NCBI GenBank assembly: GCA_024655905.1 | Contig: JANLFP010000003.1 | Span: 1-64,000 of the forward strand | Length of the DNA stretch: 64,000 bases | From: Tepidanaerobacteraceae bacterium | GTDB taxonomy: Bacteria > Bacillota > Thermosediminibacteria > Thermosediminibacterales > Tepidanaerobacteraceae | Direction: 5' to 3' | Part shown: positions 8 through 18,899 of the stretch, piece after piece | How positions within the stretch are numbered: position 1 is the first letter of the stretch | Layout of the letters: each line of letters starts with the position of its first letter | Program-made: the position numbers and the translations under genes | The notes under the pieces: generated by a model | Told to the model about the DNA's origin: nothing | The model's database searches: none | What the model saw: the letters and a program-made list of their open reading frames with translations, nothing else

Positions 8-3000
8 CTTTCAGTCCCCTTGCTTTCGGGTCTTTATTTGGAACCCTTTTCATCTTGCGGGAACACCGTGACGTTCTTGTCCCTTTCAGTCCCCTTGCTT
101 TCGGGTCTTTATTTGGAACTATCCCGACGGTAGTTTTAAACCCGATCAGCCCGTCACCACTTTCAGTCCCCTTGCTTTCGGGTCTTTATTTGGAACACCT
201 TGCGTAAATTTGCCTTATGACCTCCACCGACAGCTTTCAGTCCCCTTGCTTTCGGGTCTTTATTTGGAACAATATAATAATGCAACCTATACACGGAGGT
301 GTAATAGACTTTCAGTCCCCTTGCTTTCGGGTCTTTATTTGGAACCCAATTTTGCTCAATTTTACTTAATAATTGAGCAAAATCTTTCAGTCCCCTTGCT
401 TTCGGGTCTTTATTTGGAACATCCAATAAATAATAATTTTAATGAGGCTGCAGATTTCTTTCAGTCCCCTTGCTTTCGGGTCTTTATTTGGAACGATAAT
501 ATATTAGATTTTATAAAAACACTTCCAATAGAACTTTCAGTCCCCTTGCTTTCGGGTCTTTATTTGGAACACCTTGTAATGTTTGTAACCCTTAAAAACA
601 ACAAAACTTTCAGTCCCCTTGCTTTCGGGTCTTTATTTGGAACGATGAACTTTATCGCTTTTTAGCTGGTCGAGTTGACCTTTCAGTCCCCTTGCTTTCG
701 GGTCTTTATTTGGAACCTCCTTCTCAACACTTAAAATATCCTCATCATGAAATTACTTTCAGTCCCCTTGCTTTCGGGTCTTTATTTGGAACTAAATGGT
801 GTTGCAGTAACACAAAGTGCTCAGGGTGGCTTTCAGTCCCCTTGCTTTCGGGTCTTTATTTGGAACTTGAGATTCTCAACAAATACATAATCAGGAAATG
901 TCTTTCAGTCCCCTTGCTTTCGGGTCTTTATTTGGAACCAAGGATAATGTGTAGTTTGTACAATGTAAAATACGAACTTTCAGTCCCCTTGCTTTCGGGT
1001 CTTTATTTGGAACTATCTACATACGGGGTGTTTCCCCGTGGCTATGGGTACTTTCAGTCCCCTTGCTTTCGGGTCTTTATTTGGAACGAACACGTCCTGC
1101 TCGACACCCTGAGTAGCTCTGCGCCCTTTCAGTCCCCTTGCTTTCGGGTCTTTATTTGGAACAGCTTGAGCAGAAGGCGTATGCGACAACGATAATTGAC
1201 TTTCAGTCCCCTTGCTTTCGGGTCTTTATTTGGAACCCTGCGGATATTCACCGTCTCCACCCGCCCCATCGAGGCTTTCAGTCCCCTTGCTTTCGGGTCT
1301 TTATTTGGAACCCTACAAACCCCCAGTTATGATAACGCTGAGCAAGAATCTTTCAGTCCCCTTGCTTTCGGGTCTTTATTTGGAACCCACTCATCCACCG
1401 GCAGTGGCTGCCCGCTTTGGTAAGCTTTCAGTCCCCTTGCTTTCGGGTCTTTATTTGGAACTTATTTAATTCCTTAAATATCACCTCCGCTTTTTCTTTG
1501 TCTTTCAGTCCCCTTGCTTTCGGGTCTTTATTTGGAACTTCCTTCTTCCTCCGCTCTCTAAGCCTTGGTATTCTTCTTTCAGTCCCCTTGCTTTCGGGTC
1601 TTTATTTGGAACTTCGGTTTTTAGGACCGAATCTGAAACGAATCCAGGACTTTCAGTCCCCTTGCTTTCGGGTCTTTATTTGGAACTTAACAGAAAAAAT
1701 CCATATTATGAAGCACAGCCACAACTTTCAGTCCCCTTGCTTTCGGGTCTTTATTTGGAACAAAAGAGGGAGGTAGAGGAAGATGCCTAAAGCAATATCT
1801 TTCAGTCCCCTTGCTTTCGGGTCTTTATTTGGAACAGCCTCAAAAGCGGCATTTACAGCGGCGTTTTTGCAAACTTTCAGTCCCCTTGCTTTCGGGTCTT
1901 TATTTGGAACTTTGGCAGTAGGTTGTCCGATATGAGGCCACTAATTGACTTTCAGTCCCCTTGCTTTCGGGTCTTTATTTGGAACTCCTTTTTCCAGTTC
2001 GATTTTGGCTCAGTCCGTGAAATACTTTCAGTCCCCTTGCTTTCGGGTCTTTATTTGGAACCCAGGAATAGTAATACGAATCGGGGAAATTGAGGTATTT
2101 TACTTTCAGTCCCCTTGCTTTCGGGTCTTTATTTGGAACTCGATATACCCGGCGGAAAAATCGCCGAGCTCATGTCTTTCAGTCCCCTTGCTTTCGGGTC
2201 TTTATTTGGAACTGTATATGCAGCAAACCCGGTTAAAACTGGGGCTGTTGCTTTCAGTCCCCTTGCTTTCGGGTCTTTATTTGGAACCAAATCATACAAC
2301 AAGTGTTAGGAGGTGGTCAAAATCTTTCAGTCCCCTTGCTTTCGGGTCTTTATTTGGAACTCAATTTCTACGTCCTCCCCGCCATCAAACGGTTGAACTT
2401 TCAGTCCCCTTGCTTTCGGGTCTTTATTTGGAACCTCCTTATTCCAATCATCTTCTTCAAATTCTGCCCTCTTTCAGTCCCCTTGCTTTCGGGTCTTTAT
2501 TTGGAACGCAGGCAGGGCTACGAAGGCAGGACCTTTCCGCAAGACTTTCAGTCCCCTTGCTTTCGGGTCTTTATTTGGAACGCTGCTTGAGTAACATTGC
2601 CACATTTGGCATATGCTTGCCTTTCAGTCCCCTTGCTTTCGGGTCTTTATTTGGAACTGCATTGCATTGTCAAGGTTTATACCTTCTGCTGTCGACTTTC
2701 AGTCCCCTTGCTTTCGGGTCTTTATTTGGAACCTAATGTCCTTTCAGTTCGTAACTGGTTGAACATGTCACTTTCAGTCCCCTTGCTTTCGGGTCTTTAT
2801 TTGGAACTACTCCCGTCAGCATCCTGTTTATTTCTGCCAACGTTTCTTTCAGTCCCCTTGCTTTCGGGTCTTTATTTGGAACCCACATAATTATCCCTCC
2901 TTAAAATGGCGCTTCGTCCTTTCAGTCCCCTTGCTTTCGGGTCTTTATTTGGAACTCCCTACGAGGAATTGAAACAACGTCGAGGTCGTGTGGTCTTTCA

Positions 3001-3328
3001 GTCCCCTTGCTTTCGGGTCTTTATTTGGAACATATATGAGCAGGTTGATTCAGCAACCTAAAGCCTTAGCTTTCAGTCCCCTTGCTTTCGGGTCTTTATT
3101 TGGAACTGTGAAGCTCCCGTCCAGCGTTTCGGCCATGGACTTTACTTTCAGTCCCCTTGCTTTCGGGTCTTTATTTGGAACATAACTAAAAATGGAGATT
3201 TTAAAGCTATAGGCTTTACTTTCAGTCCCCTTGCTTTCGGGTCTTTATTTGGAACGCAAGAACATGCATAGGGTCTATATCCGCAGGGATGCTTTCAGTC
3301 CCCTTGCTTTCGGGTCTTTATTTGGAAC
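8..3328 (-). CRISPR. CRISPR array, 45 repeats and 44 spacers, continuing left of the window
   Basis: A 37-nt repeat occurs 45 times without a visible mismatch. On the plus strand it begins CTTTCAGTCCCC and ends TTATTTGGAAC. The first copy is 8-44, the last 3292-3328. Spacers are 35-41 nt, mostly 37-38. The reverse complement begins GTTCCAAATAAAG and ends GGGGACTGAAAG; a GAAAG/GAAAC end is typical of the 3' (crRNA 5' handle) end of type I repeats. I therefore infer that the array is read on the minus strand, with the leader on the right next to the cas genes and the youngest spacers near 3.3 kb. The 7 bases before the first repeat look like part of a spacer, so the array probably runs off the left edge. 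Peptides read from this region are translations of the repeat, not genes. Confidence 0.98.
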
Positions 3329-3647
3329 CGACCGGAAATGCTCGGGGGAATCCTTTATCATTCGGGCATTTCCTGGTTTTTGTTTTCAATGTTCAGGGCT
3401 AAAATATTCGTTTTAGATAGTTCTGTATAAAAACATGAGACATCTTCGAAAAAATTGCAGTGGATAAAAATTCTTTTGTATCAATATTTTTATCGAACCT
3501 ATAACTGCTTTCTGAATATTAAATATGGCAATATTTAGGTGACATAAGCAGCATCTTCGAAAATATTTTATTCCAATTTGATTATTATCTTCATTCTAGT
3601 AAAACTCAACACAAAAAGCAACTGTCTTTTAAGCTTAGTGCTTAAAC
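3329..3647 (-). promoter_or_regulatory. Probable CRISPR leader
   Basis: About 320 bp of AT-rich, gene-free DNA lie between the last repeat and the end of csa1. With the array read on the minus strand this is where a leader belongs. Two things stand out. An inverted repeat GGAAATGCTCG (3334-3344) and CGGGCATTTCC (3363-3373), 10 of 11 positions paired, sits five bases from the first repeat. A direct repeat CATCTTCGAAAA occurs at 3441-3452 and 3552-3563. I could not pick out a convincing -35/-10 pair. The leader role is inferred from position and composition. Confidence 0.7.
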
Positions 3648-4565
3648 TTAATGGCAATCGGCATAATATGGGCAGGTATCATAACATTCTTCAGCCAAGC
3701 CGGGATCAATACCTTCAAAAACCATATGCATCCTTTCATCCCTTTCCTCGATAAACCATTCTCGCAGTTCATCATCTATTATATGAAAATCTTTTTCGAT
3801 AATTAATCGGTTGTTTTTAAAATTACCATAAACTATACATCCCACATTTACGGGGAATTCGAATACGCTTTCCATCACCAGTGCATAGCCGGTGGTACAA
3901 AGCCTGTGAAAATCCTTCTTTTTCCCGAATTTCAAATCCACTACCATGGGCTCGGACATGGTGAAAGCATCTGCACTCAAATATTTGCTCAATCCAAGAA
4001 ATGAGCCATCCAATTTTTGTTCCACCACTACCGGCAAGGCCAGGGATATGAGGCTATCTTCATTTATATACGGCTGTCTTGACAATACATCCTGTATTCG
4101 GCTTATTACTTGGCCGTATTCATAATTCCAGATGAAATTAACTTTGTTCTTTGCATCTTCCATTTCTTCCGGCGAAATGAGGTCTTTTCTTCGATCTAAT
4201 GGCGAAAAGTCCACCTTTTTTAATTCCTCGAACACATCATTGCATTTTCCTATACCATTTATGTAGATTAGCCTTTTTGCCTTAATAATGAAATTTACCA
4301 GAGCCTCATGGAATATAACGCCAAGTATCATATCCAAATTTTGTTTGGCTTTAACATTTTCGACTTTCCTTAAATATACATCCCTGCAGGTAGAGCAATA
4401 TTTATTAGCTATTTCATATAGCGGAAGTTTAATATCATAAATTGGTGCCAGGGGCGGTTGATTCCAGTTCCAGCCTCTTAAATCTTCATCTATATGAATT
4501 TTGCGGGATTTGGGGAGATAACCTTTTAATAAGTGCTTTTTTTCTTCGGAATTTAAAAAATACAC
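3648..4565 (-). CDS. csa1: CRISPR-associated protein Csa1 (Cas4-like nuclease)
   Basis: A 305-aa protein of the Csa1 family, a Cas4 relative best known from type I-A loci, thought to help trim and orient prespacers during adaptation. Visible features are an N-terminal YCSTCRDVY block (C57, C60), a PD-(D/E)XK-like VVDLKFGKKKDF motif near residue 210 and a C-terminal cysteine cluster (C294, C298, C304). The last would hold an iron-sulfur cluster together with the N-terminal cysteines. The GTG start follows GAGGTGAT. It is the last gene of the cas operon, 4 bp after cas4 and next to the leader. Finding both Csa1 and Cas4 beside a type I-D effector is unusual. Confidence 0.85.
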   Translation of the reverse strand: MYFLNSEEKKHLLKGYLPKSRKIHIDEDLRGWNWNQPPLAPIYDIKLPLYEIANKYCSTCRDVYLRKVENVKAKQNLDMILGVIFHEALVNFIIKAKRLIYINGIGKCNDVFEELKKVDFSPLDRRKDLISPEEMEDAKNKVNFIWNYEYGQVISRIQDVLSRQPYINEDSLISLALPVVVEQKLDGSFLGLSKYLSADAFTMSEPMVVDLKFGKKKDFHRLCTTGYALVMESVFEFPVNVGCIVYGNFKNNRLIIEKDFHIIDDELREWFIEERDERMHMVFEGIDPGLAEECYDTCPYYADCH

Positions 4566-4569
4566 TTTA

Positions 4570-5181
4570 TCACCTCACGTCTTTGCAGTAATTTTTATAT
4601 TCGCAATCCCAGCAGCGCCTTACGGACCTTGCTTCGGGGAATTTTTCACGTTTTATCATATTATAAATAGCACTTATGACCTTCTTCACATAAATCCTCA
4701 TACTGTCGGTAATGGTTACCACTTGTATATCTTTGTTGGGAATAGTATATATAAATCCGCGTCGGACGGGTTTATTATAATGTTCTTCCAGTAGCATCGC
4801 ATAAGCTACCAGTTGGTACTTATGGTTTTGCTGGATTTGATGAACGGTATTTTTAAACTCCACCGGATAATACTCTTTCAAATTTCCTTTTTTAAACTCG
4901 ATGACCATGTCAATAAGGCCGCTTAATCCCAATCTTTCCGAATAGACCGGTAGATGGAATATCCTTTCCCCTTCTTCAAATCCGTATGAGACGAGCTTTC
5001 TTCTTTTTTCCAGCCTATCTATCTCCAAATGCCGATCTTTCCCATGTTCCATTTTAAATGTAGGTTTTTTATTGACCGGTAAAACATATGTATAATAGAT
5101 GATCCTGGGGCAGTAAACATATTGTTTTATATCAGTTACAGTTAAATTAAACCGATATTCGGAGCTGTTATCCTGGTTCAT
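4570..5181 (-). CDS. cas4: CRISPR-associated exonuclease Cas4
   Basis: A 203-aa Cas4, a RecB-type nuclease that trims prespacers and selects those with a correct PAM before Cas1-Cas2 integration. It has C24 in YCPRIIYY, the nuclease core GLIDMVIEF followed by EYYPVEFKN (acidic residues and the E-x-K lysine), and the C-terminal cluster C190-x2-C193-x5-C199 that completes a 4Fe-4S site. Length is normal. Its start overlaps the end of cas2 by 14 bp, so the two are probably translationally coupled. Family assignment is firm; the enzymatic details are known of the family and not tested here. Confidence 0.93.
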   Translation of the reverse strand: MNQDNSSEYRFNLTVTDIKQYVYCPRIIYYTYVLPVNKKPTFKMEHGKDRHLEIDRLEKRRKLVSYGFEEGERIFHLPVYSERLGLSGLIDMVIEFKKGNLKEYYPVEFKNTVHQIQQNHKYQLVAYAMLLEEHYNKPVRRGFIYTIPNKDIQVVTITDSMRIYVKKVISAIYNMIKREKFPEARSVRRCWDCEYKNYCKDVR

Positions 5182-5437
5182 TTACATGCTCCTCTTCATT
5201 GATGATTGTCTTTCGTAATTGAAAATCTCTATCGCATAAGGGGAATATTTGAATATTACCTGGTTTCATTCCCAGGATTTTTTTAAGCCTCAAACGCAGT
5301 TCTTCTCGGCGGTTATGGTTTATATCTCCCAAAAATGCGCTTTTTTGAATCCTTGTGAGGCCATAATCTTTGCAAGCTTCTCCAACTTTATTCCTTATTT
5401 TGTCGGAAGTTATGTCGAATATAACCAGTGTCTGCAT
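5168..5437 (-). CDS. cas2: CRISPR-associated endoribonuclease Cas2
   Basis: An 89-aa Cas2, the ferredoxin-fold dimer that bridges two Cas1 dimers in the spacer integrase. It opens with MQTLVIFDIT, carrying the conserved Asp at position 8, and contains RIQKSAFLGDI, the usual second strand and turn. Length is typical. It lies 9 bp after cas1 and overlaps cas4, which places it firmly in the adaptation part of the operon. Confidence 0.93.
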   Translation of the reverse strand: MQTLVIFDITSDKIRNKVGEACKDYGLTRIQKSAFLGDINHNRREELRLRLKKILGMKPGNIQIFPLCDRDFQLRKTIINEEEHVNEPG

Positions 5438-5446
5438 ATCATAACC

Positions 5447-6454
5447 CTACCATTTGCCTACAAAGGCCTTATATTTACTTTCACCCCGCAGGAATGTAGC
5501 TATATGTCGGGCCTGCTTCTGAATGATGGATTTTAAAGTAAACCTCTTACCATCAAAAGTTTCTACCGATTCCAGCCTTTCTTTAAATTTTTCAATCAAC
5601 GTTTTCCTGGTGGTATCGGTAAGCTTGCCATCTTTTATCTCGATTTCGGTTCCTTTTTGGATTATGGCGATTACTACCCTATCCACCACTTGCTGCCGGA
5701 ACTCTTCGGTTACATCAAGTACCAAAGAAGGCTTGCCTGGCCTGTCCACATGCATAAATCCGGCAAAGGGGTCAAGTCCTGCCAGGACCAATGCTCCCCA
5801 TACCTGGGAATAAAGCATGCCATAGCCGTAATTTAGTGCGGAATTTACCGGGTCCTGAGCTCCCCGGTGCTCTCTACCGTTAAAGTCCTGTTTATCCGCA
5901 AAAATGACTCCCACCATTTCCCAATATATATCGGCAGCCCTGCCTTCTATGGATAAAAACTGTGGCCTTATATCATCGATTTTGTCCGCATCTTGCTGGA
6001 AAAGCTCTTTTATATGATTTTCCATTTTTGAAATTCCATCATATATTTGTCTATAAACCTCCGGATGGGTTTCCTTTCTATGGCGAGCAAAATATTTTAA
6101 GACATTTTGCTGGTTTTTTATCTTGCCTTTTATTATTTCTCTAGTGAGCTCTACTCCCCGCTTGTCGTTATAAGCAGCAAGTTGTTCCCTGCGGGTCATT
6201 ACCGTCCCTGTCAGATTTGGCGAAGATATCTGGGCATAAGGCTGACCGTTGAATGTCAAAAAATTTATCTGGATGCCCCGCTCCATGCATTCCTGAATTA
6301 CATCGGTTGTGATAGAAACCCCTGAAGATGTTATAGTTATTTGTGATATATCAAAAAGCGGAGTTTCCTGCACCACCTCACCTTTTTTCCTTATTATAAG
6401 CCGCTCGCTTTTTTTGCCGAGAGAAACGCCGAAGTCGTCGATGATTATGTCCAT
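5447..6454 (-). CDS. cas1: CRISPR-associated integrase Cas1
   Basis: A 335-aa Cas1, the metal-dependent integrase that inserts new spacers at the leader end. Catalytic residues are visible: E170 in SIEGRAADIYW, H235 in GFMHVDRPGKPSLVLDVTEEFR, and D247/E250 in the same block. Length and the whole all-alpha C-terminal domain are normal. It is the first adaptation gene after the effector genes, from which it is separated by a 70-bp gap containing a 9-bp hairpin. The ATG start is supported by the good N-terminal match (MDIIIDDFGVSLGKKSERLIIR). Confidence 0.96.
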   Translation of the reverse strand: MDIIIDDFGVSLGKKSERLIIRKKGEVVQETPLFDISQITITSSGVSITTDVIQECMERGIQINFLTFNGQPYAQISSPNLTGTVMTRREQLAAYNDKRGVELTREIIKGKIKNQQNVLKYFARHRKETHPEVYRQIYDGISKMENHIKELFQQDADKIDDIRPQFLSIEGRAADIYWEMVGVIFADKQDFNGREHRGAQDPVNSALNYGYGMLYSQVWGALVLAGLDPFAGFMHVDRPGKPSLVLDVTEEFRQQVVDRVVIAIIQKGTEIEIKDGKLTDTTRKTLIEKFKERLESVETFDGKRFTLKSIIQKQARHIATFLRGESKYKAFVGKW

Positions 6455-6524: not shown

Positions 6525-7265
6525 TCACAGTAATATTTCTTTAGGAACATAGTCGATAGGATAAGAAAATTGTTTGTCTCCAAAATTGCAGTTAAATATC
6601 TCTTTGTTGTAATATCCGCTGATTAATAGATACCGCATTGTGATGGCATGAATATTATATTCTGAAAAATATATAATGTCATCCCGAGCCACTTGTGTTG
6701 GTACAATCTTGCCACTATTTAAAATTTCACAAAACATTACTTCTGAAAGATCCGTTATTTGAAACATGGTCCTTTTTTTGCCCATTAAATATATCGAACC
6801 CTTATTATAACTTTGAAGCAATCTTTTATCAGCAGAAACCCCATAGGTTACAATATAATTATTCGGCAAAATAGTCTCCATGGAACCATAGGTCGGCGAT
6901 GACTTGCGGTTTTTACCGCCACCTGTCCCCGGATAATCTTCATCCAGAACATTAAACATATTAACATCGATAGTCGTCTTATTTTTCGTCAAAAACTTAT
7001 CATGTATTTTATATACAAACATTCCGGGTGAAAACCATATTGGAAAATTTTTAATATCATAGGTCGAAATAAAATCGTATTCATCCGATTTTAAATCAAT
7101 GTATTTCGGTTCTCGCGTTATTTCTCTTGTCAATCCTGCATAAAGGGCTTCCGAAGTCAAAAAAAGATTTGTTTTATATTTCGACCCGAAATCTGAGCTT
7201 ATGGTTAAAAATCTCCCGCAGTTACGGAGCTCAAACCTTCTACAATAAATGTTCATTATACTCAC
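6525..7265 (-). CDS. csc1: Type I-D Cascade subunit Csc1 (Cas5-like)
   Basis: A 246-aa protein placed directly after csc2 with a 4-bp overlap, the normal position of Csc1. Csc1 is the Cas5-type RAMP subunit that caps the 5' handle of the crRNA in the type I-D complex. The sequence is diverged. I recognise the general Csc1 layout, with a conserved core near YLMGKKRTMFQITDLSE (about residues 155-172) and an N-terminal beta-rich region. The glycine-rich PGTGGGKNRKSSP loop near 112-124 could be a RAMP-type RNA-contacting loop (inference). Assignment rests on both sequence and position. Confidence 0.78.
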   Translation of the reverse strand: MSIMNIYCRRFELRNCGRFLTISSDFGSKYKTNLFLTSEALYAGLTREITREPKYIDLKSDEYDFISTYDIKNFPIWFSPGMFVYKIHDKFLTKNKTTIDVNMFNVLDEDYPGTGGGKNRKSSPTYGSMETILPNNYIVTYGVSADKRLLQSYNKGSIYLMGKKRTMFQITDLSEVMFCEILNSGKIVPTQVARDDIIYFSEYNIHAITMRYLLISGYYNKEIFNCNFGDKQFSYPIDYVPKEILL

Positions 7266-8239
7266 CCTTTTAGTATATCAAAATATTTTTTGAACTCCTG
7301 GATAAGATTTTCCGTCATTTGATCGATCTCCCCTCCGAAGACTGTGACAGGTTCCGAAGAATTACCTTCAAATTCGACTCCAGGAGAGGTTGCGTTAAAT
7401 TTGGTTCTGATTTTATCTATAGAATAATCCGGGCCGGCCCATTCAAGCATATCCAGAACAGAGAAACGGGGATAGCCGGTGGAAACAGCCAAAAATTCAG
7501 TATCAAATTTACCATGGTTGGCCGAATATTTGCCGTATCCATGCTGATCAGCTATTTTCACTGCCTTTATGTAACCTATGACGTCAAGAAATGTCGAGTT
7601 TTCAATTATGGTTATAAATGGGAAGTGTATCCCCGCTTTTACATATTCATATTGATGATAAGAGTCGGATCCTCTCTTCTTATTTAAGTCTTCAGATACC
7701 GTGTTACCTATAGCCATTCCCTCATCACTGCCCTCCATGGCTACCGCAAGTTCGGTTGGTTCTATAGAATAAGTATCGAAATATCTTATTCTGGAAAAGA
7801 CCGCACCCTTCCCTGCTTCTAAACCGCCAAAAAGTGAGCAGTTCCAGCATGTCAAGCATAATCCGTCAGGAATAATGCAGCCGCCTTCTTTCCCGAAATA
7901 TTTTTTAAAAGCTTCATCCCATGCCATGTCACTATTGGCCTCCAACAATTCCCTGAACATAGACATGTGGGCTCGTCTTTCTATGCCTTTAAGTTTTCGG
8001 CCAATAAACTCAGCTCTATTTGAATCTAATAAATCCACTTTATCGACAAATGTATCGGTGGAATAGCCCTCGTGGGATACAGGCAAAAACCGTGAAGCAG
8101 TCGTTTTTATACCGACTATAGTTGCTACTTTTTTTACCATGGAGGCTTTCACGACTTTTTTCCCTTTTTCAAGAGAAATAGGTTCAAGGACATCTTTGAT
8201 ATCGGATAACTGGCTTTTAAACATTTCAAAATTATTCAT
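7262..8239 (-). CDS. csc2: Type I-D Cascade backbone subunit Csc2 (Cas7-like)
   Basis: A 325-aa Csc2, the Cas7-type protein that polymerises along the crRNA to form the I-D backbone. Family landmarks are TTASRFLPVSHEGYSTDTF near the N-terminus (about 47-65), the cysteine motif DGLCLTCWNCSLFGG near residue 130, and SRIRYFDTYSIEP further on. Length is typical. It overlaps the upstream small gene by 8 bp and csc1 by 4 bp, so all three are probably coupled. This is the clearest marker that the locus is type I-D. Confidence 0.92.
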   Translation of the reverse strand: MNNFEMFKSQLSDIKDVLEPISLEKGKKVVKASMVKKVATIVGIKTTASRFLPVSHEGYSTDTFVDKVDLLDSNRAEFIGRKLKGIERRAHMSMFRELLEANSDMAWDEAFKKYFGKEGGCIIPDGLCLTCWNCSLFGGLEAGKGAVFSRIRYFDTYSIEPTELAVAMEGSDEGMAIGNTVSEDLNKKRGSDSYHQYEYVKAGIHFPFITIIENSTFLDVIGYIKAVKIADQHGYGKYSANHGKFDTEFLAVSTGYPRFSVLDMLEWAGPDYSIDKIRTKFNATSPGVEFEGNSSEPVTVFGGEIDQMTENLIQEFKKYFDILKG

Positions 8240-8876
8240 TATTATTGACCTCCTCTACATTTTCAGTAGGTTTTTCATCTAAAACATTTTCATAATACTT
8301 TTTGGTATCGATAAATTTACGTTTTGCGTCTTTAACAATGTTTTCCCATTCACCATTAGAAAATTTGATTTGTAAATCTTTAACCCTTTCATCTCCTTCA
8401 ATAATATTTTCAAAGTTTTCAATGCCATAATTTATATCTTTTCCTTTATCTTTCAGTAAATCTACTACAATCATGGATAATTCTCTTCTAGGATATAGAT
8501 AACCGAAAATCCTGGCATAGAGGCTTCCTCGTAAATGCTGAATTAGTATCTTTTTGCTTTTCCCCTGAAAAAATTCCGGGTTTTTATCTATCCATTTTTC
8601 CAAACTTTTTAATACCGGAAAGTATTTTTCCTTTTTATAATTGGATTCATCGCCGGGAGTATCCCTTAAAAGTTTGCTTTCCCATTCACTGAATGCAATT
8701 TTGGGATCCTCATACCTTTGAAGATAACCGAAAAATAATCTAGGATATTTTTCTAATTTGGTAGGAGTTGATTCTTTTGACCTCAAAGATATGGGTAGAT
8801 GGCCTAAAGTATCTATGGTTTGAAAAATCAAATTACAAAACTCATTTACTTTAATTTCATCCAACATCACACTCAT
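8232..8876 (-). CDS. Probable separate type I-D small subunit (Cas11d-like)
   Basis: A 214-aa, highly charged, mostly helical-looking protein without a motif I can name. It sits 4 bp after cas10d and overlaps csc2 by 8 bp. In described type I-D systems the small subunit Cas11d is made by internal translation of the 3' part of cas10d. Here cas10d is short (711 aa) and this extra gene follows it, so the simplest reading is that the C-terminal Cas11 domain has become its own gene. This is inferred from order, size and character, not from recognised homology. The C-terminus is acidic and low-complexity (ENVEEVNNNE). Confidence 0.55.
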   Translation of the reverse strand: MSVMLDEIKVNEFCNLIFQTIDTLGHLPISLRSKESTPTKLEKYPRLFFGYLQRYEDPKIAFSEWESKLLRDTPGDESNYKKEKYFPVLKSLEKWIDKNPEFFQGKSKKILIQHLRGSLYARIFGYLYPRRELSMIVVDLLKDKGKDINYGIENFENIIEGDERVKDLQIKFSNGEWENIVKDAKRKFIDTKKYYENVLDEKPTENVEEVNNNE

Positions 8877-8880
8877 AATC

Positions 8881-11016
8881 TTACCTCCCTTGGTTTATTT
8901 TTTGATATTCCTTACATTTTAAGAAAAGATTAAAATACTCCATTAAATTTGGTTGCCTATTGATACCGTCAAAAATCACATTATATTTATCTTCGCTCTC
9001 TGAGGATAATACTTTGGAATGCCTCATCACCTCCGATAATGTTATCATTGGTTCATCTACCATCCTTTCTGACAGCATCATCTTTTTAATGAATCTTTTG
9101 TCTTCATTCCATCTTACCACCTTTTGGCTGAAACCTGCAAAAGCTTCATAATAATTGATAACTTCATCAGCGCTGTATTTCTCATCTCTGACATAGAAAG
9201 TATCGGTTGAAAAGTTAGCCTGATCAAGTGATGGTAAAGTCAAATAATAATAGGGGCCATCACAGCCACAGAGCTTTCGCAGAAATGCCAGCAGTGTCAA
9301 TACAGTAATCCTGCTATTGTTAAAACGTTCCTGAATGTAATTATGGGATTTTTTATTTACTGTATTTTTAAACTCCGGCAAAATAAAAAGCATCAGCCTG
9401 TAATCTCCTAAACCAATACTGAAAACATAATTTTCGGCGACATCTATATCTATATCCGACTCAGACAATATATCGATTGCCGGATCTAAAACGGGATCAA
9501 TCCTATTATTTAGCAACTTTCTTAAATTGTTTGTAATAATTTCACTAAGTCTTGTTTTTTCTTCAGCCAGTCCTTCAAGTTCTGTTTTTTGCATTTGTAA
9601 TTCATGGCGCTTTTTCTCTGATACACTCTCAAGCTTTTTTAACAAGTCCTTCATATCACTATTTATTTTAGCCAGAGAAAATCTTGCTTCTTTTTGTTGC
9701 TTTATTAAACTCAGGGACTTTTTTAACGAATCGGCGATAGTCTTTACTTCATTATCATCATGGCGCCCGTAATGAAAGATCATACTGCCTTGTTGGGGAA
9801 CAAAGGCCAAACTGCCTGCAGTATTACCTACTAGTTTCGTAATGAGATATGATTGAATACAACATTTAATGCAGATTTTTATTTCATTTTTGACATCTTT
9901 ATTAACTATCTGATTATGGAACTTACCTACATCTTCGCCCATGATTATGTGATTTTCAGTCAATCTTGCTCCGTTAGCCCCACAGCAGCGGCAAAAAGTT
10001 TTGCAATCCGATTCCCTTTTATCATTAAATATAATCAAACCCATTTGAGTCTGGTTTAATAGTTCTCTTACCGTTTCCTGTGGATTTAATGATAATGCTT
10101 TCTCTTTTGCGTATTTCATATTCCATTCATCGGGATCGGTGGAAGCTAATTTTTCGTATGCATCAAGGGTTTTAATGAAAAATCTTTTTAATTTATCCGG
10201 CGAATATTTTTCTTTGCTCATACTGTCTTTTATATCTTCTGCAAAAGTTTTTAATCCCTTTTTATTGGAAGTATCATAAACACTATCCAGATTTAATGCT
10301 TGTTTTAGTTCCTTCTCATCAAGACCTGTTTCATTTTTATAAGAACTCACTGCCCGTGCCATCAAAAAGTAAGGGCCTTGAAATTCACTACCATCTTTGG
10401 ATAAAAAGAATGACATGTTTGCAGTTATCTTAGTTGGATTAGATTGAAAGTCGAATTCCTCTATCCTTTTACGCAAATGCTGGCGAGCAATAGTACCTAA
10501 TTTATTAACATATATTCTGGGAATGGCAAATATGGGAAAAGCCTCTATATTATTTTTATGGAATTCGAGTAGCTTTTTAAATTCACCATATATCCCCTTT
10601 TCTTCATTTCTATCGCTGAAATAAAGATCTTCCAAATTATCTTCCAGAGTGCGCAAATAGGCTTCTTTCAGTTCCTCAATAGTTTTATCGGTAAACCAGA
10701 GATAATAAAAATTTTCAATGTCGTTTGCTACCATTGAAATGGGACCCAAATCATTTTCTTTGCCGGCAAGAAGGATATTCTTGCTTAAAAAAGAATTTAA
10801 CAATACACTGCCCATAAAAACTTCTTCCCTCATAGTTACAGGAGAATAAAACCTGAGTAAAATCAGTTTTTTATCTTCAATAGGAAATTCATAATATATT
10901 GAACCTTCCAATATGTGATTTAAAATTTCTTCATCGGATATATTGCCGGTGATACTATTATTTTTTAGGAAATTTCTAATCTCATTTTGAACAACCGCTT
11001 GAAAAGAATATGCCAT
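8881..11016 (-). CDS. cas10d: Type I-D large subunit Cas10d (Csc3) without HD domain
   Basis: A 711-aa Cas10d/Csc3, the large subunit that recognises the PAM and anchors the I-D complex. A zinc-binding region is seen near 340-347 (CKTFCRCCG) and 380-385 (ICIKCC). A strongly charged coiled-coil stretch covers about 430-500. The C-terminal part includes a CGCDGPYYYLTLPS core. No GGDD motif is present (IGLGDYRLML in the equivalent area), so cyclic oligoadenylate synthesis is not expected. The N-terminus has no HD nuclease, which family members normally carry; that domain is encoded by the preceding gene. The ATG overlaps the HD gene stop as TGATG, indicating tight coupling. Confidence 0.85.
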   Translation of the reverse strand: MAYSFQAVVQNEIRNFLKNNSITGNISDEEILNHILEGSIYYEFPIEDKKLILLRFYSPVTMREEVFMGSVLLNSFLSKNILLAGKENDLGPISMVANDIENFYYLWFTDKTIEELKEAYLRTLEDNLEDLYFSDRNEEKGIYGEFKKLLEFHKNNIEAFPIFAIPRIYVNKLGTIARQHLRKRIEEFDFQSNPTKITANMSFFLSKDGSEFQGPYFLMARAVSSYKNETGLDEKELKQALNLDSVYDTSNKKGLKTFAEDIKDSMSKEKYSPDKLKRFFIKTLDAYEKLASTDPDEWNMKYAKEKALSLNPQETVRELLNQTQMGLIIFNDKRESDCKTFCRCCGANGARLTENHIIMGEDVGKFHNQIVNKDVKNEIKICIKCCIQSYLITKLVGNTAGSLAFVPQQGSMIFHYGRHDDNEVKTIADSLKKSLSLIKQQKEARFSLAKINSDMKDLLKKLESVSEKKRHELQMQKTELEGLAEEKTRLSEIITNNLRKLLNNRIDPVLDPAIDILSESDIDIDVAENYVFSIGLGDYRLMLFILPEFKNTVNKKSHNYIQERFNNSRITVLTLLAFLRKLCGCDGPYYYLTLPSLDQANFSTDTFYVRDEKYSADEVINYYEAFAGFSQKVVRWNEDKRFIKKMMLSERMVDEPMITLSEVMRHSKVLSSESEDKYNVIFDGINRQPNLMEYFNLFLKCKEYQKINQGR

Positions 11017-11768
11017 CAATCCACACCTCCCATCAATAACTCCAGAAGTTCTTTTATTCCCCTGTTACTTCTTGGGTCGTCTTTATTCAATGCCATTTCT
11101 AAATTATCTGCCTCCTCTATTAATTTATCCAGCAACTGACCATATGAAGCCGTTTCAGAAATGAGATTCCTATAATCTATACCCTTTTCATGACAAAAGG
11201 AATGAATTAGATCCGATACCATTACAAGACCCCCAAATGGGTGAAATAATAACAATAAATCAACCAAAGTTATACGCTTAACCTCATTAATGGTTCTAGT
11301 AGTCCACTCTCTTCGTATGAGCCATTTGTCTCCATAATTCTTGGTGGATTCATATGACATGTAAAAAAGCCCGTGATGACTGACTGCAAAGGCTAATACC
11401 ATGTCTAAATCGATAGGATCGGTTATTTTATAGGAGAATGCCGAAAATAATTCTTTTATTATTTCATCCTGACCGTCCCTTAAAACATCGATATATTCCA
11501 GGGTGCTGGCTTCATGTTTTACCCGTTTCGACGGCAATGGATCACCTTTGATAACAGCTTGTAGCATTGCTTGAAAATCCGAGTTTAGCTTACCCAGGTC
11601 ATGAGCAAATGTAGAAAATATTAAAGTATCCCTTTTTTCTTTGGGATAAGTTTTCCCGAATCGGTCCAATATATAAAGAGCTATTTCCGTGGCACCTGCG
11701 ACATGATCATATAATTTCAATTTTCTTGTAGATTTGCCATAACATTGTTTAAACAGTTCGATTATCAT
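11016..11768 (-). CDS. cas3'': Stand-alone HD nuclease (Cas3''-type)
   Basis: A 250-aa HD-family protein, predicted to be the metal-dependent DNA nuclease of the complex. Candidate metal ligands are H22, H56-D57 (FAHDLGKLN), H85 (KHEAST) and H131-H132 (SHHG). It is encoded between the helicase cas3' (14 bp gap) and cas10d (stop/start overlap). In usual type I-D systems this HD domain forms the N-terminus of Cas10d, so the gene looks like a fission product, or an ancestral unfused form. Cas3'' from other subtypes is an alternative origin, but the position before cas10d favours the former. Confidence 0.85.
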   Translation of the reverse strand: MIIELFKQCYGKSTRKLKLYDHVAGATEIALYILDRFGKTYPKEKRDTLIFSTFAHDLGKLNSDFQAMLQAVIKGDPLPSKRVKHEASTLEYIDVLRDGQDEIIKELFSAFSYKITDPIDLDMVLAFAVSHHGLFYMSYESTKNYGDKWLIRREWTTRTINEVKRITLVDLLLLFHPFGGLVMVSDLIHSFCHEKGIDYRNLISETASYGQLLDKLIEEADNLEMALNKDDPRSNRGIKELLELLMGGVD

Positions 11769-11782
11769 TTAAGCCACCTCTA

Positions 11783-14590
11783 TTATTTAGAGCTTAAAAG
11801 TTTCTTATATAGGGCAAGGCAGGCGCCCTGAATATTATCTAATAAAACCATGTCGTGGCCATTTGGGCTTCTACCTTTATAATCTAGATCATAATATATC
11901 TCTTCAAAGTCCGATAACTTTAGACTTTCCAAGCCCTTAATATCAGGAGTTTCAGGGAAAATAAGGCAAAATTGGTCCGGCAGGATTATCGGTTCTCCGT
12001 ATTTATCGCATACTTCTTCGAGAGTACCCTCTTCATCACCCAGAATTTTTCGCTTTAAATAAATATCTCCAAATATCAAGACGGGATAGATTAGATTTGG
12101 AATTGATCTATAAAATTGTTTTATTTGTTTATATGCCGTTAAGCAGCATTCTTTACCTACAATAATATCAAAATTATCTTTATTTAATATAATGACTGCC
12201 TTACCTTCCTCAAGGGTTTTTTCTACATCTACAAAAACCTGATACTTTCTTTTTTCATAAATCAAACTTGTAAAATAAGTATCGGCTTTTGCCATCTCAA
12301 ACCCTGAATCGACTACTTCCAGTTCTTGAGCAGGTAAGAATTGTAATAATTGAAAAACATTTTTAGTAACCCCTTCATCTTTTAAACCGATGGAAGGCAT
12401 AGTACCCCTTAACCCATAGAGCAGATTTATCTGAGCCTGCTCTATTTTATCCGCAAAATTTATGGCAGCCTGTAAAATATGACTTTCTTTATTTAAGACG
12501 TCCCCGATTAACCCCAATTGCCGATTTATAAGCACAAAGCTTGATTCAGAAAGCATTGAATTAGCCAAACTAATGCGATTCTTGAATATTTTGGTAATAA
12601 TTTTCGAAAAATCTTCCCGCAATAAAGCTTCTTTTAAACCTATCTCATCTTTTAAATCTGAAAACAATCCGCCATCTACTAAAACCCAGCAACAAGCATA
12701 TTCCGAGGATCTGCCCACCCGGCCGAACCTTTGAAGAAATGAACTTGCCTCACATTTTTCCGTTATCAATAAATCCGCTGAAAAGTCAATCCCCACTTCT
12801 ACTGCTGAAGTTGAAATAAGAACAGCTTTTTTAAGATCATCAAAAAGGTTTATCAATCCATCTCTTGATGGTTTTGACATGCTTCCGGAATAAACAATAA
12901 CCGGATATTCAGTATTTTCTATAAAACCTATATGATTCATATCAATTTGTCTGCAAAAATCCATGTCGTTTTTTACTACACCTTTTAATGCGGAATATAT
13001 TGTTTCGTATTCTTCCTTAAAATAGGACTTGAGCCACTTTAAATATACATATTGATTATTCTTTTTAGGAAAACTCCCTTTATAATTAATAATCGAATCC
13101 CTATTAAAACTGAACTTTTCCAAAAAACGTTTTTTAATATCCTCAACTATTTCAGGATCCATATAGCCTATGATCTCATCAATTATTTTTAAAGAAGGAT
13201 AATGTATATGAACTATTTTAGAAGAATCAATATCGTTTTCCAATTTATCGAGCAGGATATTAAAAACATCCTGAAAGATTTCTTTCCACTCAAAATAATC
13301 CTTTTCTAAATTAATATCGTAATTTTCTTTCGGTAAAATAAATGTTATTAATTTTTTTAGTAGTATACTTCTTCTCTCAATATTTTTTAAGATTATTTTT
13401 AGGGATACTGGACTGCTAAAATCTTTATTTTCTTCGAGATTTTTCTTAAAGGTAAAATATAATACCTGGATTACTTTTCCCTTATATTTCATTAAAATAT
13501 CTCGAATGACATTGAAAACTTCCTGTGGATCGGTTTGCACCTCTACTTCTTTGAATTCTTCTAATTTATATCTTATTTCATCCATATCTGCGCTATATAA
13601 TTTTTCAAGTGTCCTATCAGATACGCCGAATTTCCTTAAAGCGTTTTCTAATATAGATTTTTTTACTCTGCCAAACTGTAAATATTGTTCGGGTGTAAAA
13701 ACATTTTCAGATTCAGATATTTTACCGGCAATATCAAAAAATAACCTGTGAGCCATGGCGGCACTATTGCATATTACCAGAACCTTTTTATATTCACTTA
13801 TTATTGCTTTTTTAATCAGGTTTTTATATTCGATATTTTTTTCTTTCGGGGATGAATTAAAAAAAGAAACATCTACACTTCGACATTTCGATCGGCCATT
13901 TATGATCTTTCCATGATTAATTGAAAAGATTTCTTCTCTCGGGGTAGCCGTAAGAATATGTATGTGAAAAGCTTTAGACATAAATTTCTTTTGTAATATT
14001 TCGATCCGTTCAAAAAACAACTTCAAATTCTGTACGGTCAACCCACTGAATATATGAGCTTCATCGATTACAAATTCATCAACCTGACACAAACCGTAAA
14101 TTAAAACAGAGTTGTACTTTATGTTTTTTCTAAAAAACCAATAAATAGCATCAGGAGTGGCAACAATAATCTTTTTTGATAAGTTGGATATAAGTTGACT
14201 CCTTGTCATACCGCCACGGATATAACCAATCTTATCTTCCATACCTGTTAATTTCCCTAATTCCAATAAAACGCTCTGCTGATCTTCCAACAATGCGATT
14301 GTTGGGTATAAAAACATTACTTTATTGATTTCCTTACGTAATAACTTTGTGAAAATCGGTATGGCGACCGCCAGTGTCTTTCCTGCTGCAGTACCTGCCA
14401 CCATTATAACGTTATGCCCTTCTTTGATATATTTAAATGCTTGGGCCTGGTGTTCATATGGATATAAATCAGGTATATTGGTTTTTGTATATATGTAATT
14501 TTGAAAGAGAATAAGTTCATCTTTTGGGACACTTTTTGCAATATCCGGTGGCTTGTTATTAACTTTAATGTTAAAATACTGCTCTAACAT
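11783..14590 (-). CDS. cas3': CRISPR-associated helicase Cas3' (type I-D)
   Basis: A superfamily 2 helicase of about 935 aa without an HD domain, predicted to unwind target DNA after Cascade binding. Motifs: Q-motif region YEHQAQAFKYI, Walker A GTAAGKT near residue 70, DEAH (FVIDEAHIFSG) near 177, TATPRE, and motif VI QRFGRVGRS. Two starts are possible: TTG at 14599 or ATG at 14590, and I prefer the ATG. The middle (roughly 270-520) is a long lysine-rich insertion between the two RecA domains. Base composition is AT-rich like the rest of the operon. Confidence 0.9.
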   Translation of the reverse strand: MLEQYFNIKVNNKPPDIAKSVPKDELILFQNYIYTKTNIPDLYPYEHQAQAFKYIKEGHNVIMVAGTAAGKTLAVAIPIFTKLLRKEINKVMFLYPTIALLEDQQSVLLELGKLTGMEDKIGYIRGGMTRSQLISNLSKKIIVATPDAIYWFFRKNIKYNSVLIYGLCQVDEFVIDEAHIFSGLTVQNLKLFFERIEILQKKFMSKAFHIHILTATPREEIFSINHGKIINGRSKCRSVDVSFFNSSPKEKNIEYKNLIKKAIISEYKKVLVICNSAAMAHRLFFDIAGKISESENVFTPEQYLQFGRVKKSILENALRKFGVSDRTLEKLYSADMDEIRYKLEEFKEVEVQTDPQEVFNVIRDILMKYKGKVIQVLYFTFKKNLEENKDFSSPVSLKIILKNIERRSILLKKLITFILPKENYDINLEKDYFEWKEIFQDVFNILLDKLENDIDSSKIVHIHYPSLKIIDEIIGYMDPEIVEDIKKRFLEKFSFNRDSIINYKGSFPKKNNQYVYLKWLKSYFKEEYETIYSALKGVVKNDMDFCRQIDMNHIGFIENTEYPVIVYSGSMSKPSRDGLINLFDDLKKAVLISTSAVEVGIDFSADLLITEKCEASSFLQRFGRVGRSSEYACCWVLVDGGLFSDLKDEIGLKEALLREDFSKIITKIFKNRISLANSMLSESSFVLINRQLGLIGDVLNKESHILQAAINFADKIEQAQINLLYGLRGTMPSIGLKDEGVTKNVFQLLQFLPAQELEVVDSGFEMAKADTYFTSLIYEKRKYQVFVDVEKTLEEGKAVIILNKDNFDIIVGKECCLTAYKQIKQFYRSIPNLIYPVLIFGDIYLKRKILGDEEGTLEEVCDKYGEPIILPDQFCLIFPETPDIKGLESLKLSDFEEIYYDLDYKGRSPNGHDMVLLDNIQGACLALYKKLLSSK

Positions 14591-14682
14591 ATTTATCAAC
14601 CCGATTTCACTCTATTTTTCAGATATCCTTATAATATTTTACTGCCAATCCTACCCATCCTATGGGTATTATAAAAATTTCA

Positions 14683-15675
14683 TCAAGATTTTTTCATCAC
14701 ATATTTCCCCAACCCAAAAGTAATATTTTTCCCGACATGTATGTATTCGCCCAGGATAATAAGGGGAAGATATGGTACAAGGTTGCCTTCATATGTGATG
14801 TTTCCGACTAGGCCGCCCATTTTCATTCTATTTTGCTGGCGGCTGGAATATCTTTCCCAGTCTTCCCAGACTGTAAAATCGTTTTTTATAATCACTTTAG
14901 CAGCGGTTTCGACAAATGTTTTATAATCGATACTTATCTTCGTATCATTATGAAAATAAGACAGATTTGAAAACCGCCGAAGAAGATTACCGATAAGGAT
15001 ATGAAATTCTAATTTTGTTGCAAAATGGTTATCATATTTTATCCTGGTGGGAGTCTGAAAAGATAAGGTTATTTGGTCCGGTGAGTGGGCCCCGTTATCC
15101 GCTTGGTTTAATATGTCTTCCCCGGTTATTGTTATGTCACAATTGCGGACTTTTTTATCTTCATCAGAGTATATGAGATGCTCAACTTTTTTGAAGGGAT
15201 TTTGGCCTAATACCCGCCGAAGGACATAGGGCTTCCTTCCACGGCCTATTCCCATGTTGCCCAATTCGACAAAGGTGACCAGAAAATACGGCAGATATTC
15301 TATGGCTTTTCCGATAAGGATCAGTTCAAAGCGTATTTTTTCACCGGGCTTATAAAATGTCTTTTTTTCCGGCGGAGGCTCAATGACATAAGGCCTTGGA
15401 ACTTCCTCAAAATTGTTCAGCACTTCCGACCTGTGTCCGGGAGACGTTTCGAAAATATAGCTGTAAGGGCATTGTTCTTTCAGGAGGCAATTGGTGCAGT
15501 CGGTCTTTTTCATTGTGCAGACCATACTCCTGAAAGCATGTCCAAAACCTCCCCTGAAAGTAGAGCCTTTATATGTGGGAAGGTCCAGACCATCCTTTCC
15601 AGATTCTATTTCAAGCATATATTTTGCCAGGCGGAAATTTTTCATGAAATCCCTACAAGAATCTATCTTTGACAA
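14683..15675 (-). CDS. cas6: CRISPR pre-crRNA endoribonuclease Cas6
   Basis: A 330-aa Cas6-type RAMP, which cuts the repeats of the precursor to give mature crRNAs. It shows an N-terminal Cys cluster (C53, C60, C63, C69, ending KEQCPYSYIFET) seen in the larger Cas6 branch. There is also an internal glycine-rich GNMGIGRGRKPY and the C-terminal glycine-rich signature GKNITFGLGKY. The start is TTG preceded by GGAG at 8 bases. It is the first gene of the operon and is followed by cas3' after 83-92 bp. Its own 5' region holds the repeats described under the control region. Confidence 0.88.
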   Translation of the reverse strand: MSKIDSCRDFMKNFRLAKYMLEIESGKDGLDLPTYKGSTFRGGFGHAFRSMVCTMKKTDCTNCLLKEQCPYSYIFETSPGHRSEVLNNFEEVPRPYVIEPPPEKKTFYKPGEKIRFELILIGKAIEYLPYFLVTFVELGNMGIGRGRKPYVLRRVLGQNPFKKVEHLIYSDEDKKVRNCDITITGEDILNQADNGAHSPDQITLSFQTPTRIKYDNHFATKLEFHILIGNLLRRFSNLSYFHNDTKISIDYKTFVETAAKVIIKNDFTVWEDWERYSSRQQNRMKMGGLVGNITYEGNLVPYLPLIILGEYIHVGKNITFGLGKYVMKKS

Positions 15676-16253: not shown

Positions 16254-18899
16254 CTACCCCACTTCCTCCAGCTCTCCGGTGTCTATATTGTAGTATCCGT
16301 AGCATGTCTCGCCAGGGATGCCGACAACATCATTGATGGAAAGGATCACTTTGATGCCGTCGTCGGTATTATTTAAGTATCGGCCGCGGTATGCCGGGCC
16401 GCCTATGGAGGGATGGTAGTAGACTGCTTCCACCAGGTATTCCATGTTGGCATTTTTAACGGCAAGTCCTTTAGAGCCTGGGAGTATTACTTTTGCCACG
16501 TTTTCTCCCGAGGCCGGTGCCTGTTCTTCTTCGTCATCGGAGAACTTCAGTGGTTCAAGTTTTTGGCGGAGTGAACGGGCTATCTCTCTTATGGCTTTCA
16601 TGGTCTCATCATTTATGCGGTCTTCGTCCTGAAATCCCGAAAGTTCCACCATTTTGTCGGCGGTATTTACCAGGATATTTTTTTCCAGGATTCTGCCGGT
16701 AAGTCTCAGACTACCGTAAGTCTGGTCGTACAGGGCTATGAACCTTGCGTTCTGTTTTATCATGGCTTTGTCCGCCCTGTGCCGGTCCACGGCTATGTTT
16801 ATGTCCCGCCGCTCATAGGGGAGTATCATCAAAAAGGCATCAAAGAAAAGGCTGGCGATGATATCACACTTCACGTTCAACCAATTTAATGCAGGATGGG
16901 TTATAACCACACCGCTGGTGAAAAAGTTTCGAGTAAACTTATCTTTATCAAAGTAAATGCCCGATGTCGCAGACGATAGAGAGTCTAGTGGGTAGTTGAA
17001 GGTAGTTTCATTGGGTCCCCGGCGCTCCTTATAACCTGTAATAGTCTCCCTGATCTGCAGGCCGCATTCTACCAGGGAACATTCCCCGGCCCTGTAGGAA
17101 CTGTAGATGCTTTCCGGCGACAGGTTGGGGAATACCATGGTGGGGTAAGCCACAGGCCTTGTAGTGTAGCGTTTTTCATTTCTGACATAGACTATCTTGG
17201 AGCGGGGAAGTACTTTGTAGACCCTGTGAGGGATAGTGGTATAGTAATATACTGCCCCGGGATAAGCCTCCCGCATGAGCTGACTGTATGAAACGGTGCC
17301 CAGGTCCCTTAGTTCCGGGCCCTGTTTTAGTTCCACCCTGAACTGACTTTCCACATCTCGCAGAGGATACACATGGTTGGGATCGTCCCCTGCTTCGGCT
17401 TTCATGCTTTGAAGTTCAACAGGGATCTCACCGGAGCGCTCCTTTTTACAAAGCTCTACGAAACCTTCGGGCCAATCTATGAAACTTGCACCCAGGATAT
17501 CCGCATTTATGGAATTTTCCTCAACTCCGGAAAAGCCGCATGCCTGATCATGCTCTCCCCCTGGCCTTGCCAGGCACATAGCGTGTATATACTGCATCCT
17601 CCGGTTTTCAAGATACAGCGCTCCTTCCGCCGGCGGCCTGGAAAATAGTTCGCCAGGGTTTCTGAAGACAGCTTCATCATATACGCTGCCGGTATTAATG
17701 ATAATAACCCGTCCCGGAGCATGCCTTCCGATACGGCCAATCCTCTGCATAAAAGCCGTCTGGGAGGACGGCACCCCCACCAGCACCCCCAGATTCAAAT
17801 AAGGTATATCCATCCCCAGCTCCAGGGCACTGGTGCTAACTACACCTTTGAGGCTGCCAGTAGCAAGCCTTTCCTGGATGGCCTTTCTATCTTCCATTTC
17901 ATAGCCTGACCTGAAGGGCAGCACGTCTAGTTTTTTTAGAAGACCGGTATCTATGTTAAAATCTTTATCCTCGTCCTTATCCTTTGCCCTGGACATGATA
18001 GATGTGATGTATTCGGTCTGTTTGCGGCTGTCCACAAAGGCAATAAAGCGCACCCCTTCTTGCCGGGCGAAAGCATTGAAAAGGTTTGTGAGTTCTGTGA
18101 GCAGGTCTGTGCTGCCTGGAGGATTGGCAAGATTCACCTCCAGTTCAAACCGTGGGGATGTGTCCATGTCTTCAGATATTAAATGGAAATCCCTGCCGAA
18201 TAATTTTTTTAAATGATCTTTCGGTTTTGAAATGGTGGCTGATGCACATATGTAGGAATATTTTGCCCCCAGCTTGCCGGTGCAATATTCCAGCCTTCGG
18301 AACAAAAAGGCGGAGTTGGAGCCAAAGACGCCACTGTAGCTGTGGACTTCATCCACCACAACCAGGGAGAGGTTTCCAAGAAACTGTCGGACATACCTTT
18401 GTGATATGGAGGGCAGCAGCCAGGCATGAAGGATATCCGGCGTAGAAACCAGTATGTTGCTTTCCTTCAGTATGGTATCCCGGGCATTTACAGGGATTTG
18501 GCCGTCTATCCTGCCTACCTTGAAGGGCATCCTGGCAAGCTTTAAGGCCTCTTTCCACCGCTCTTCCTGCTCGGAGGCCAGGGCACGAAGCGGATATATG
18601 GCAAGAATCCTGGCGGAAGGGTTCTTCACCAGTGTCTCTATTGCCGAGGTATAAAAGGCCATGCTCTTGCCTGATGCCGTGCCGGTGGTCATGCATACAT
18701 CTTTACCTTCAAGGAAGGTCTTTACAGCTTCTTTCTGGTGCAAAAAGAGGCCTTTGGGAAACTTCTCCCTAAGATATATTCCGGTAAAATTGGACAACTT
18801 GAGGTCTTCTATCGGAAAAAGCCCAGCTTTTCTGCCGGGCAAAATCCTGCTATGGACAATGCCCCAGCCCTTTTCCTTCATACTTTCCAAAATACCCAT
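16254..18899 (-). CDS. DEAD/DEVH-box helicase, YprA/MrfA/Lhr-like
   Basis: An 881-aa superfamily 2 helicase. Visible motifs: a Q-motif-like FLHQKEAVKTF, Walker A TGTASGKS, DEVH instead of DEAH (LVVVDEVHSYSG), SATIS (motif III) and QRIGRIGRHAPG (motif VI). The long C-terminal half resembles the DUF1998-type region of MrfA/Hrq1-like helicases but lacks their four-cysteine cluster. Such proteins act in DNA repair or in phage-defence islands; the exact role is unknown. It stands alone on its strand, with a decayed helicase-nuclease remnant just upstream and the cas operon downstream. It is not a Cas3: the cas operon already has one, and the domain layout differs. Confidence 0.75.
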   Translation of the reverse strand: MGILESMKEKGWGIVHSRILPGRKAGLFPIEDLKLSNFTGIYLREKFPKGLFLHQKEAVKTFLEGKDVCMTTGTASGKSMAFYTSAIETLVKNPSARILAIYPLRALASEQEERWKEALKLARMPFKVGRIDGQIPVNARDTILKESNILVSTPDILHAWLLPSISQRYVRQFLGNLSLVVVDEVHSYSGVFGSNSAFLFRRLEYCTGKLGAKYSYICASATISKPKDHLKKLFGRDFHLISEDMDTSPRFELEVNLANPPGSTDLLTELTNLFNAFARQEGVRFIAFVDSRKQTEYITSIMSRAKDKDEDKDFNIDTGLLKKLDVLPFRSGYEMEDRKAIQERLATGSLKGVVSTSALELGMDIPYLNLGVLVGVPSSQTAFMQRIGRIGRHAPGRVIIINTGSVYDEAVFRNPGELFSRPPAEGALYLENRRMQYIHAMCLARPGGEHDQACGFSGVEENSINADILGASFIDWPEGFVELCKKERSGEIPVELQSMKAEAGDDPNHVYPLRDVESQFRVELKQGPELRDLGTVSYSQLMREAYPGAVYYYTTIPHRVYKVLPRSKIVYVRNEKRYTTRPVAYPTMVFPNLSPESIYSSYRAGECSLVECGLQIRETITGYKERRGPNETTFNYPLDSLSSATSGIYFDKDKFTRNFFTSGVVITHPALNWLNVKCDIIASLFFDAFLMILPYERRDINIAVDRHRADKAMIKQNARFIALYDQTYGSLRLTGRILEKNILVNTADKMVELSGFQDEDRINDETMKAIREIARSLRQKLEPLKFSDDEEEQAPASGENVAKVILPGSKGLAVKNANMEYLVEAVYYHPSIGGPAYRGRYLNNTDDGIKVILSINDVVGIPGETCYGYYNIDTGELEEVG

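Follow-up and report, generated by a model that had tools for sequence, protein, structure and literature searches.

The window, meaning the whole stretch of 64,000 nt that was analysed, starts inside a CRISPR array of type I-D, and the fifth spacer from the leader end of this array contains the end of a second, type I-B repeat. The features are as follows.

8 to 3328, minus strand: the portion of the I-D array nearest the leader, with 44 spacers between 45 identical 37-nt repeats
2919 to 2955, minus strand: I-D repeat flanking the spacer
2956 to 2994, minus strand: spacer 5 counted from the I-D leader, guide ACCACACGACCTCGACGTT-GTTTCAATTCCTCGTAGGGA
2956 to 2975, plus strand: 20 nt that reproduce the 3' end of the type I-B repeat resident in this genome and form the distal half of the I-D guide
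2976 to 2994, plus strand: 19 nt that form the 5' half of the I-D guide and are expected to open an I-B spacer; not elsewhere in the assembly
2995 to 3031, minus strand: I-D repeat flanking the spacer
about 3329 to 3647, minus strand: presumed I-D leader between the array and the cas genes, placed by position only; the far array end, on contig C17, has a degenerate last repeat
3648 to 4565, minus strand: Cas4/Csa1-type adaptation nuclease
4570 to 5181, minus strand: Cas4
5168 to 5437, minus strand: Cas2
5447 to 6454, minus strand: Cas1
6525 to 7265, minus strand: Cas5d
7262 to 8239, minus strand: Cas7d/Csc2
8232 to 8876, minus strand: Cas11d
8881 to 11019, minus strand: Cas10d, the type I-D large subunit
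11016 to 11768, minus strand: Cas3'' HD nuclease, a separate gene
11783 to 14599, minus strand: Cas3' helicase
14683 to 15675, minus strand: Cas6

The locus was assigned to type I-D on the grounds that the Cas10d large subunit, Cas7d, Cas5d, and Cas3' are all encoded, and it has adaptation genes of its own (cas1, cas2, and cas4, with two Cas4-type proteins). The HD nuclease is encoded apart from the 712-aa Cas10d (window 8881-11768), in contrast to the I-D Cas10d described in PMC9123187 and PMC7694759, in which the HD domain is fused. The array goes on at C17:1-3805 with 51 repeats, the last of them degenerate (2 mismatches). Since the last 7 bases of the window's contig, C31, read on the minus strand (TCACCTT; C31:1), are also the first 7 of C17 and their overlap yields a normal 38-nt spacer, the join between the two contigs looks complete, and the I-D system appears to adjoin the I-B system that C17 carries. 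The run of the array into C17 and its degenerate far end also place the I-D leader at about 3329-3647 and make the spacer in question the fifth.

Past the I-D trailer, C17 encodes the type I-B Cas6, Cas8b, Cas7, Cas5, Cas3, Cas4, and Cas1b, followed by a leader and the first repeats of an array; the assignment to type I-B was confirmed by the presence of Cas8b/Csh1, Csh2, Cas5h, Cas3, and Cas1b together with a repeat ending in ...GAATTGAAAC. The whole 30-nt repeat, GTTTTTAGCCTCCCTACGAGGAATTGAAAC, has 216 copies in the genome at no more than 3 mismatches (68 forward and 148 reverse), distributed over array segments on C5 (105), C6 (43), C17 (4), and C24 (64), and no solitary whole repeat lies outside these segments in the host assembly (216/216 inside). 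The I-B leaders precede GTTTTTAG..., and the I-B spacers are mostly 35 to 38 nt long. The arrays are incompletely assembled: contig ends interrupt them, the join of C6 with C5 is open, and C24 begins and ends within spacers and contains a run of Ns.

The 39-nt spacer at 2956-2994 fits exactly between two intact 37-nt repeats and reads, on the window strand, TCCCTACGAGGAATTGAAAC followed by AACGTCGAGGTCGTGTGGT. Its first 20 nt reproduce the 3' end of the I-B repeat without a mismatch (20/20), and the repeat-spacer junction that it carries is GAATTGAAACAACGTCGAGGTCGTGTGG. The earlier note, made from the window alone, had proposed that the spacer carries the end of a different CRISPR repeat, of a kind seen in type I-B/III systems, that it probably came from another array, possibly of the same genome, and that 19 nt of the source spacer are attached. 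The sequence observations held: the second repeat is of type I-B, the I-B cas genes are in the same genome, whose own arrays hold the 216 whole copies, and the count of 19 nt is right. The window contains the 19-mer CCCTACGAGGAATTGAAAC a single time (0.01 expected), and the genome has 219 matches to it at no more than 3 mismatches; 218 of them were placed, among them the spacer and a half copy next to the Ns of C24, while the remaining one, on the forward strand, was not located and does not belong to a whole repeat.

We then compared 304 spacers (94 I-D and 210 I-B) with both repeats, leaving aside spacers truncated at contig ends and, on C24, two intervals that were too long. The spacer at 2956-2994, with its 20 nt, was the only one to have more than 10 nt in common with either repeat; the runner-up had 10 nt, and in 20 shuffled spacer sets the longest such stretch reached 9 to 11 nt. 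None of the 210 I-B spacers contained a stretch of the I-D repeat longer than 10 nt. With four newer spacers ahead of it, the spacer appears to be a fairly recent entry. As the I-B spacers are mostly 35 to 38 nt long, almost any 39-nt piece cut from an I-B array includes some repeat, and the I-B array therefore gave about one in 94 of the complete I-D spacers compared. We conclude that the spacer is real and far beyond chance, and that its main part is explained by acquisition across arrays.

The search for the donor unit that the earlier note had called for succeeded in one half only: a repeat ending in the 20-mer was found, and the adjoining 19 nt were not. Allowing up to 3 mismatches, the 19-nt half (2976-2994) has no other occurrence in the assembly; with at most 1 mismatch allowed, it was not found in 21 further genomes of the order either. 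The 28-nt junction was found neither in genome_contigs nor in viral_contigs, collections that may omit records very near this genome. For the I-B repeat 20-mer, genome_contigs gave one match, in Verrucomicrobiales, which was rejected as a donor since it is a single copy outside any array, and viral_contigs gave none. Among the 13 genomes of the family, this one included, the 20-mer is confined to this genome and G001, which has 151 exact copies of the same I-B repeat and lacks the 19 nt. The same-genus genome G008 was dismissed as a donor because its I-B-like repeat differs (...AAGAGGGATTGAAAC); in 20 kb of it the 19-nt half was absent, the best match having 6 mismatches. The longest match of the spacer to any assembled I-B unit turned out to be 25/39 nt, at the guide 3' end, and the assembled array segments thus hold no full protospacer.

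An ordinary phage or plasmid gene containing the 39 nt, which the earlier note had named as the finding that would overturn its reading, was looked for in phage and plasmid records and not found; no record covered 80% of the 39 nt. A 21-nt match within a gene of a Gordonia phage (E 0.04) and an IMG/VR match to the 19-mer half, inside an 804-aa open frame (L032), were taken as chance, neither including any repeat part. The donor junction matched no virus or plasmid record, in collections that may cover few elements of this family. Because the I-B arrays are incompletely assembled, three states are left for the donor, namely that it was lost, that it lies in an assembly gap, or that it was foreign; the breaks at contig ends and the Ns make the first two indistinguishable. 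None of the I-D spacers matched another place in this genome over its full length (23 of the 28 first-look candidates were scored in one search), so that self-sampling by the I-D system is not otherwise visible. Protospacers with natural flanks were not found for the I-D array in two viral scans with other I-D spacers or in its comparison with phages and plasmids.

The explanation that we consider probable is a normal I-D acquisition in which the prespacer was an I-B repeat-spacer junction from an array of the own cell or of a close relative; the donor unit may since have been lost. Judged by its sequence, the donor is a piece that carried an I-B repeat-spacer junction with this genome's own I-B repeat. 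The I-D adaptation machinery would have taken up DNA from the I-B array of the same cell or, less likely, from incoming DNA of a close relative; the same cell is favored by the adjoining position of the two loci and by the fact that active CRISPR loci are known acquisition hotspots. PMC7521656 cites such hotspots for Pyrococcus (at active CRISPR loci) and for Haloferax mating (near the two CRISPR loci), and acquisition upstream of CRISPR-1 in E. coli is reported in PMC10011333; the self-targeting experiments described in PMC7521656 itself gave no hotspot at CRISPR loci, which counts against self-sampling. An origin across arrays is supported by the ordinary placement of the spacer between intact repeats, its recent position, the I-D cas1, cas2, and cas4 genes, and the location of the I-B cas genes beside the I-D trailer.

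Since the I-D leader lies to the right of its array and the I-B leaders precede GTTTTTAG..., the I-D guide should be antisense to the I-B pre-crRNA, in agreement with the complementarity to the transcript of the other array that had been predicted. In the I-D orientation the guide would read ACCACACGACCTCGACGTT, the source-spacer half on the PAM side, and then GTTTCAATTCCTCGTAGGGA, the repeat half. Pairing would start in the 5' half, that is, in the 19-nt I-B spacer part, which has no match in the assembly, and interference would therefore have been limited to the single donor I-B unit. Recombination between repeats may then have deleted this unit, removing the target at the price of one memory and ending the autoimmunity; such a one-unit deletion would explain why the source spacer is absent today. 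The present I-B arrays should escape DNA cutting, as only the PAM-distal part (20 to 25 nt) matches and not the seed half, and their cutting by this guide is judged unlikely from the sequence. The proposal that the guide could cut the I-B locus was accordingly not borne out as a present activity: with the 19 nt absent from the assembly, at most 25/39 nt matched at the guide 3' end, and no match in the seed, cutting was at most past or conditional, and the assembly lends no support to CRISPR-on-CRISPR attack as an ongoing process. The I-D PAM side of the spacer falls within the missing source spacer; given the published I-D PAM, GTN or GTH (PMC10212523), the missing I-B unit is predicted to read AACGTCGAGGTCGTGTGGT and then NAC if a GTN PAM was used.

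A donor of a different kind, a plasmid or virus with a short I-B array or with a solitary repeat mimicking the host I-B repeat (a mini-array or RNA anti-CRISPR), seems unlikely to us, though it is the strongest of the competitors. The mini-arrays and RNA anti-CRISPRs described in PMC6858448, PMC10651486, and PMC11656645 use host-like repeats, Geobacillus plasmid pGt35 carries six copies of a related I-B repeat, Paenibacillus phage Scottie carries two degenerate I-B-like repeat copies, and the 19 nt are missing from the assembled host arrays. These points have to be set against viral contigs holding neither the 20-mer nor the 28-nt junction, phage and plasmid records that all fell short of 80% of the 39 nt, and a host assembly whose whole repeats all sit in array segments. 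Virus-borne mini-arrays, solitary repeat units, and RNA anti-CRISPRs resemble what is needed here in being foreign DNA with a host-like repeat and a spacer, and differ in that no element with this I-B repeat was found; a plasmid- or virus-borne I-B mini-array as the donor is possible but unsupported. Slightly less probable again is the further step that the spacer is an I-D memory against an element with such a mini-array or RNA anti-CRISPR. One CRISPR system would then protect the other from repeat mimicry, its guide seed lying in the element's spacer so that the host arrays are spared. If the donor truly was the repeat mimic of a mobile element, the spacer would represent a natural memory against RNA anti-CRISPRs.

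We give little credence to a role on RNA, in which the I-D guide, antisense to the I-B repeat, would trim or bind the I-B pre-crRNA and be kept as a cross-system regulator. Its 20-bp duplex with the 3' end of the I-B repeat has a computed energy of -34.1 kcal/mol, versus -6.5 for the repeat's own fold, and the type I-D Cascade needs no flanking motif to bind matching ssRNA according to PMC9123187, where, in the portion consulted, binding to partial matches by this complex is not described. Resident transcripts, however, pair with the guide 3' half only, the spacer is a single recent one with no sign of conservation, and it provides one guide in about 95 against more than 200 repeats; half a guide facing that many repeats makes the regulatory role unlikely. 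Chance likeness, or an assembly chimera of two arrays, is very improbable, and both are nearly excluded. Arrays are hard to assemble, and C17 ends in a sequence common to spacer 30 of the C6 array, but an exact 20-nt match is far above the 9 to 11 nt of the shuffled sets, and the inserted piece is exactly spacer-sized, lies inside a contig between two perfect I-D repeats, and brings with it neither the start of an I-B repeat nor a second junction.

Natural spacers directed at CRISPR-Cas components have been described for the E. coli CRISPR3/4 arrays, where they target cas genes (Touchon and Rocha 2010, PMC2886076; Almendros 2016, cited in PMC8616872). The cas genes targeted there are of the spacers' own cognate subtype, which the genome then lacks, whereas the spacer at 2956-2994 matches an array junction, not a cas gene, and the junction belongs to a different subtype whose cas genes are present. 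The acquisition at hotspots (E. coli naive adaptation, Pyrococcus, Haloferax mating) is similar in that DNA at or near CRISPR loci is sampled; those cases are experiments mapping newly acquired spacers, while here a single spacer in an assembled array crosses subtypes and its donor unit is missing. A limited word-match literature search gave, in the text that it reached, no precedent for a natural spacer made of the repeat plus spacer of another resident system. The spacer looks like the fossil of an event in which one CRISPR system sampled another in the same genome and survived, and it offers a concrete model of a cheap escape from autoimmunity, the loss of one repeat-spacer unit.

Several further observations concern the arrays of this and other genomes. 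The six-repeat I-B-like array of pGt35 (Geobacillus sp. LC300, CP008904.1 about 12618-12990; L067:1359-1732) has the repeat GTTTTTATCTTACCTATGAGGAATTGAAAC, and no cas gene is annotated beside it in the 3-kb stretch viewed. In phage Scottie (MH460825.1 about 18630-18692; L068:1459-1521) the degenerate repeat-like ends ACCTAATAAGGAATTGAAAC and ACCTATGAGGAATTGAAAC are intergenic, after an amidase gene, and phage SV21 has part of the same stretch; we regard it as a candidate solitary repeat or RNA anti-CRISPR. Two partial I-D spacer matches in G008 turned out to be array spacers themselves: I-D spacers 21 and 23 of C17 overlap spacers at C64:1099-1133 and 1844-1871 of that genome with 96 to 97% identity, in an array with an I-B-like repeat, and the two arrays seem to have recorded the same element. 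In genome G002, two isolated copies of the I-D repeat, at C55:3879 (5 mismatches) and C55:5625 (2 mismatches), lie downstream of an array whose repeat is I-B-like; they may be the remains of an I-D array.

Within the genome under study, the end of C17 (12909-12933) equals the beginning of C6 I-B spacer 30 in 25/25 nt. The same spacer thus seems to occur in both I-B arrays, which may have caused the contig break at this point. In the C5 array, 28 of the 105 repeats end in GAAAG instead of GAAAC, a repeat variant, and through a segment duplication spacers 84-85 are present again as 91-92. After the I-B cas1 on C17 there is only a decayed cas2-like stretch (12268-12678), while an intact I-B cas2 is found at C6:3070-3333, upstream of a second leader and array; it is 96.6% identical over 87 aa to the cas2 of G001, which sits directly after cas1. 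We interpret the C6 region as a duplicated cas2-leader-array cassette. The split of cas1 and cas2 had been considered as a scar of self-targeting, an idea that was dropped: the decayed stretch remains on C17 before the leader, and duplication and decay therefore explain the split.
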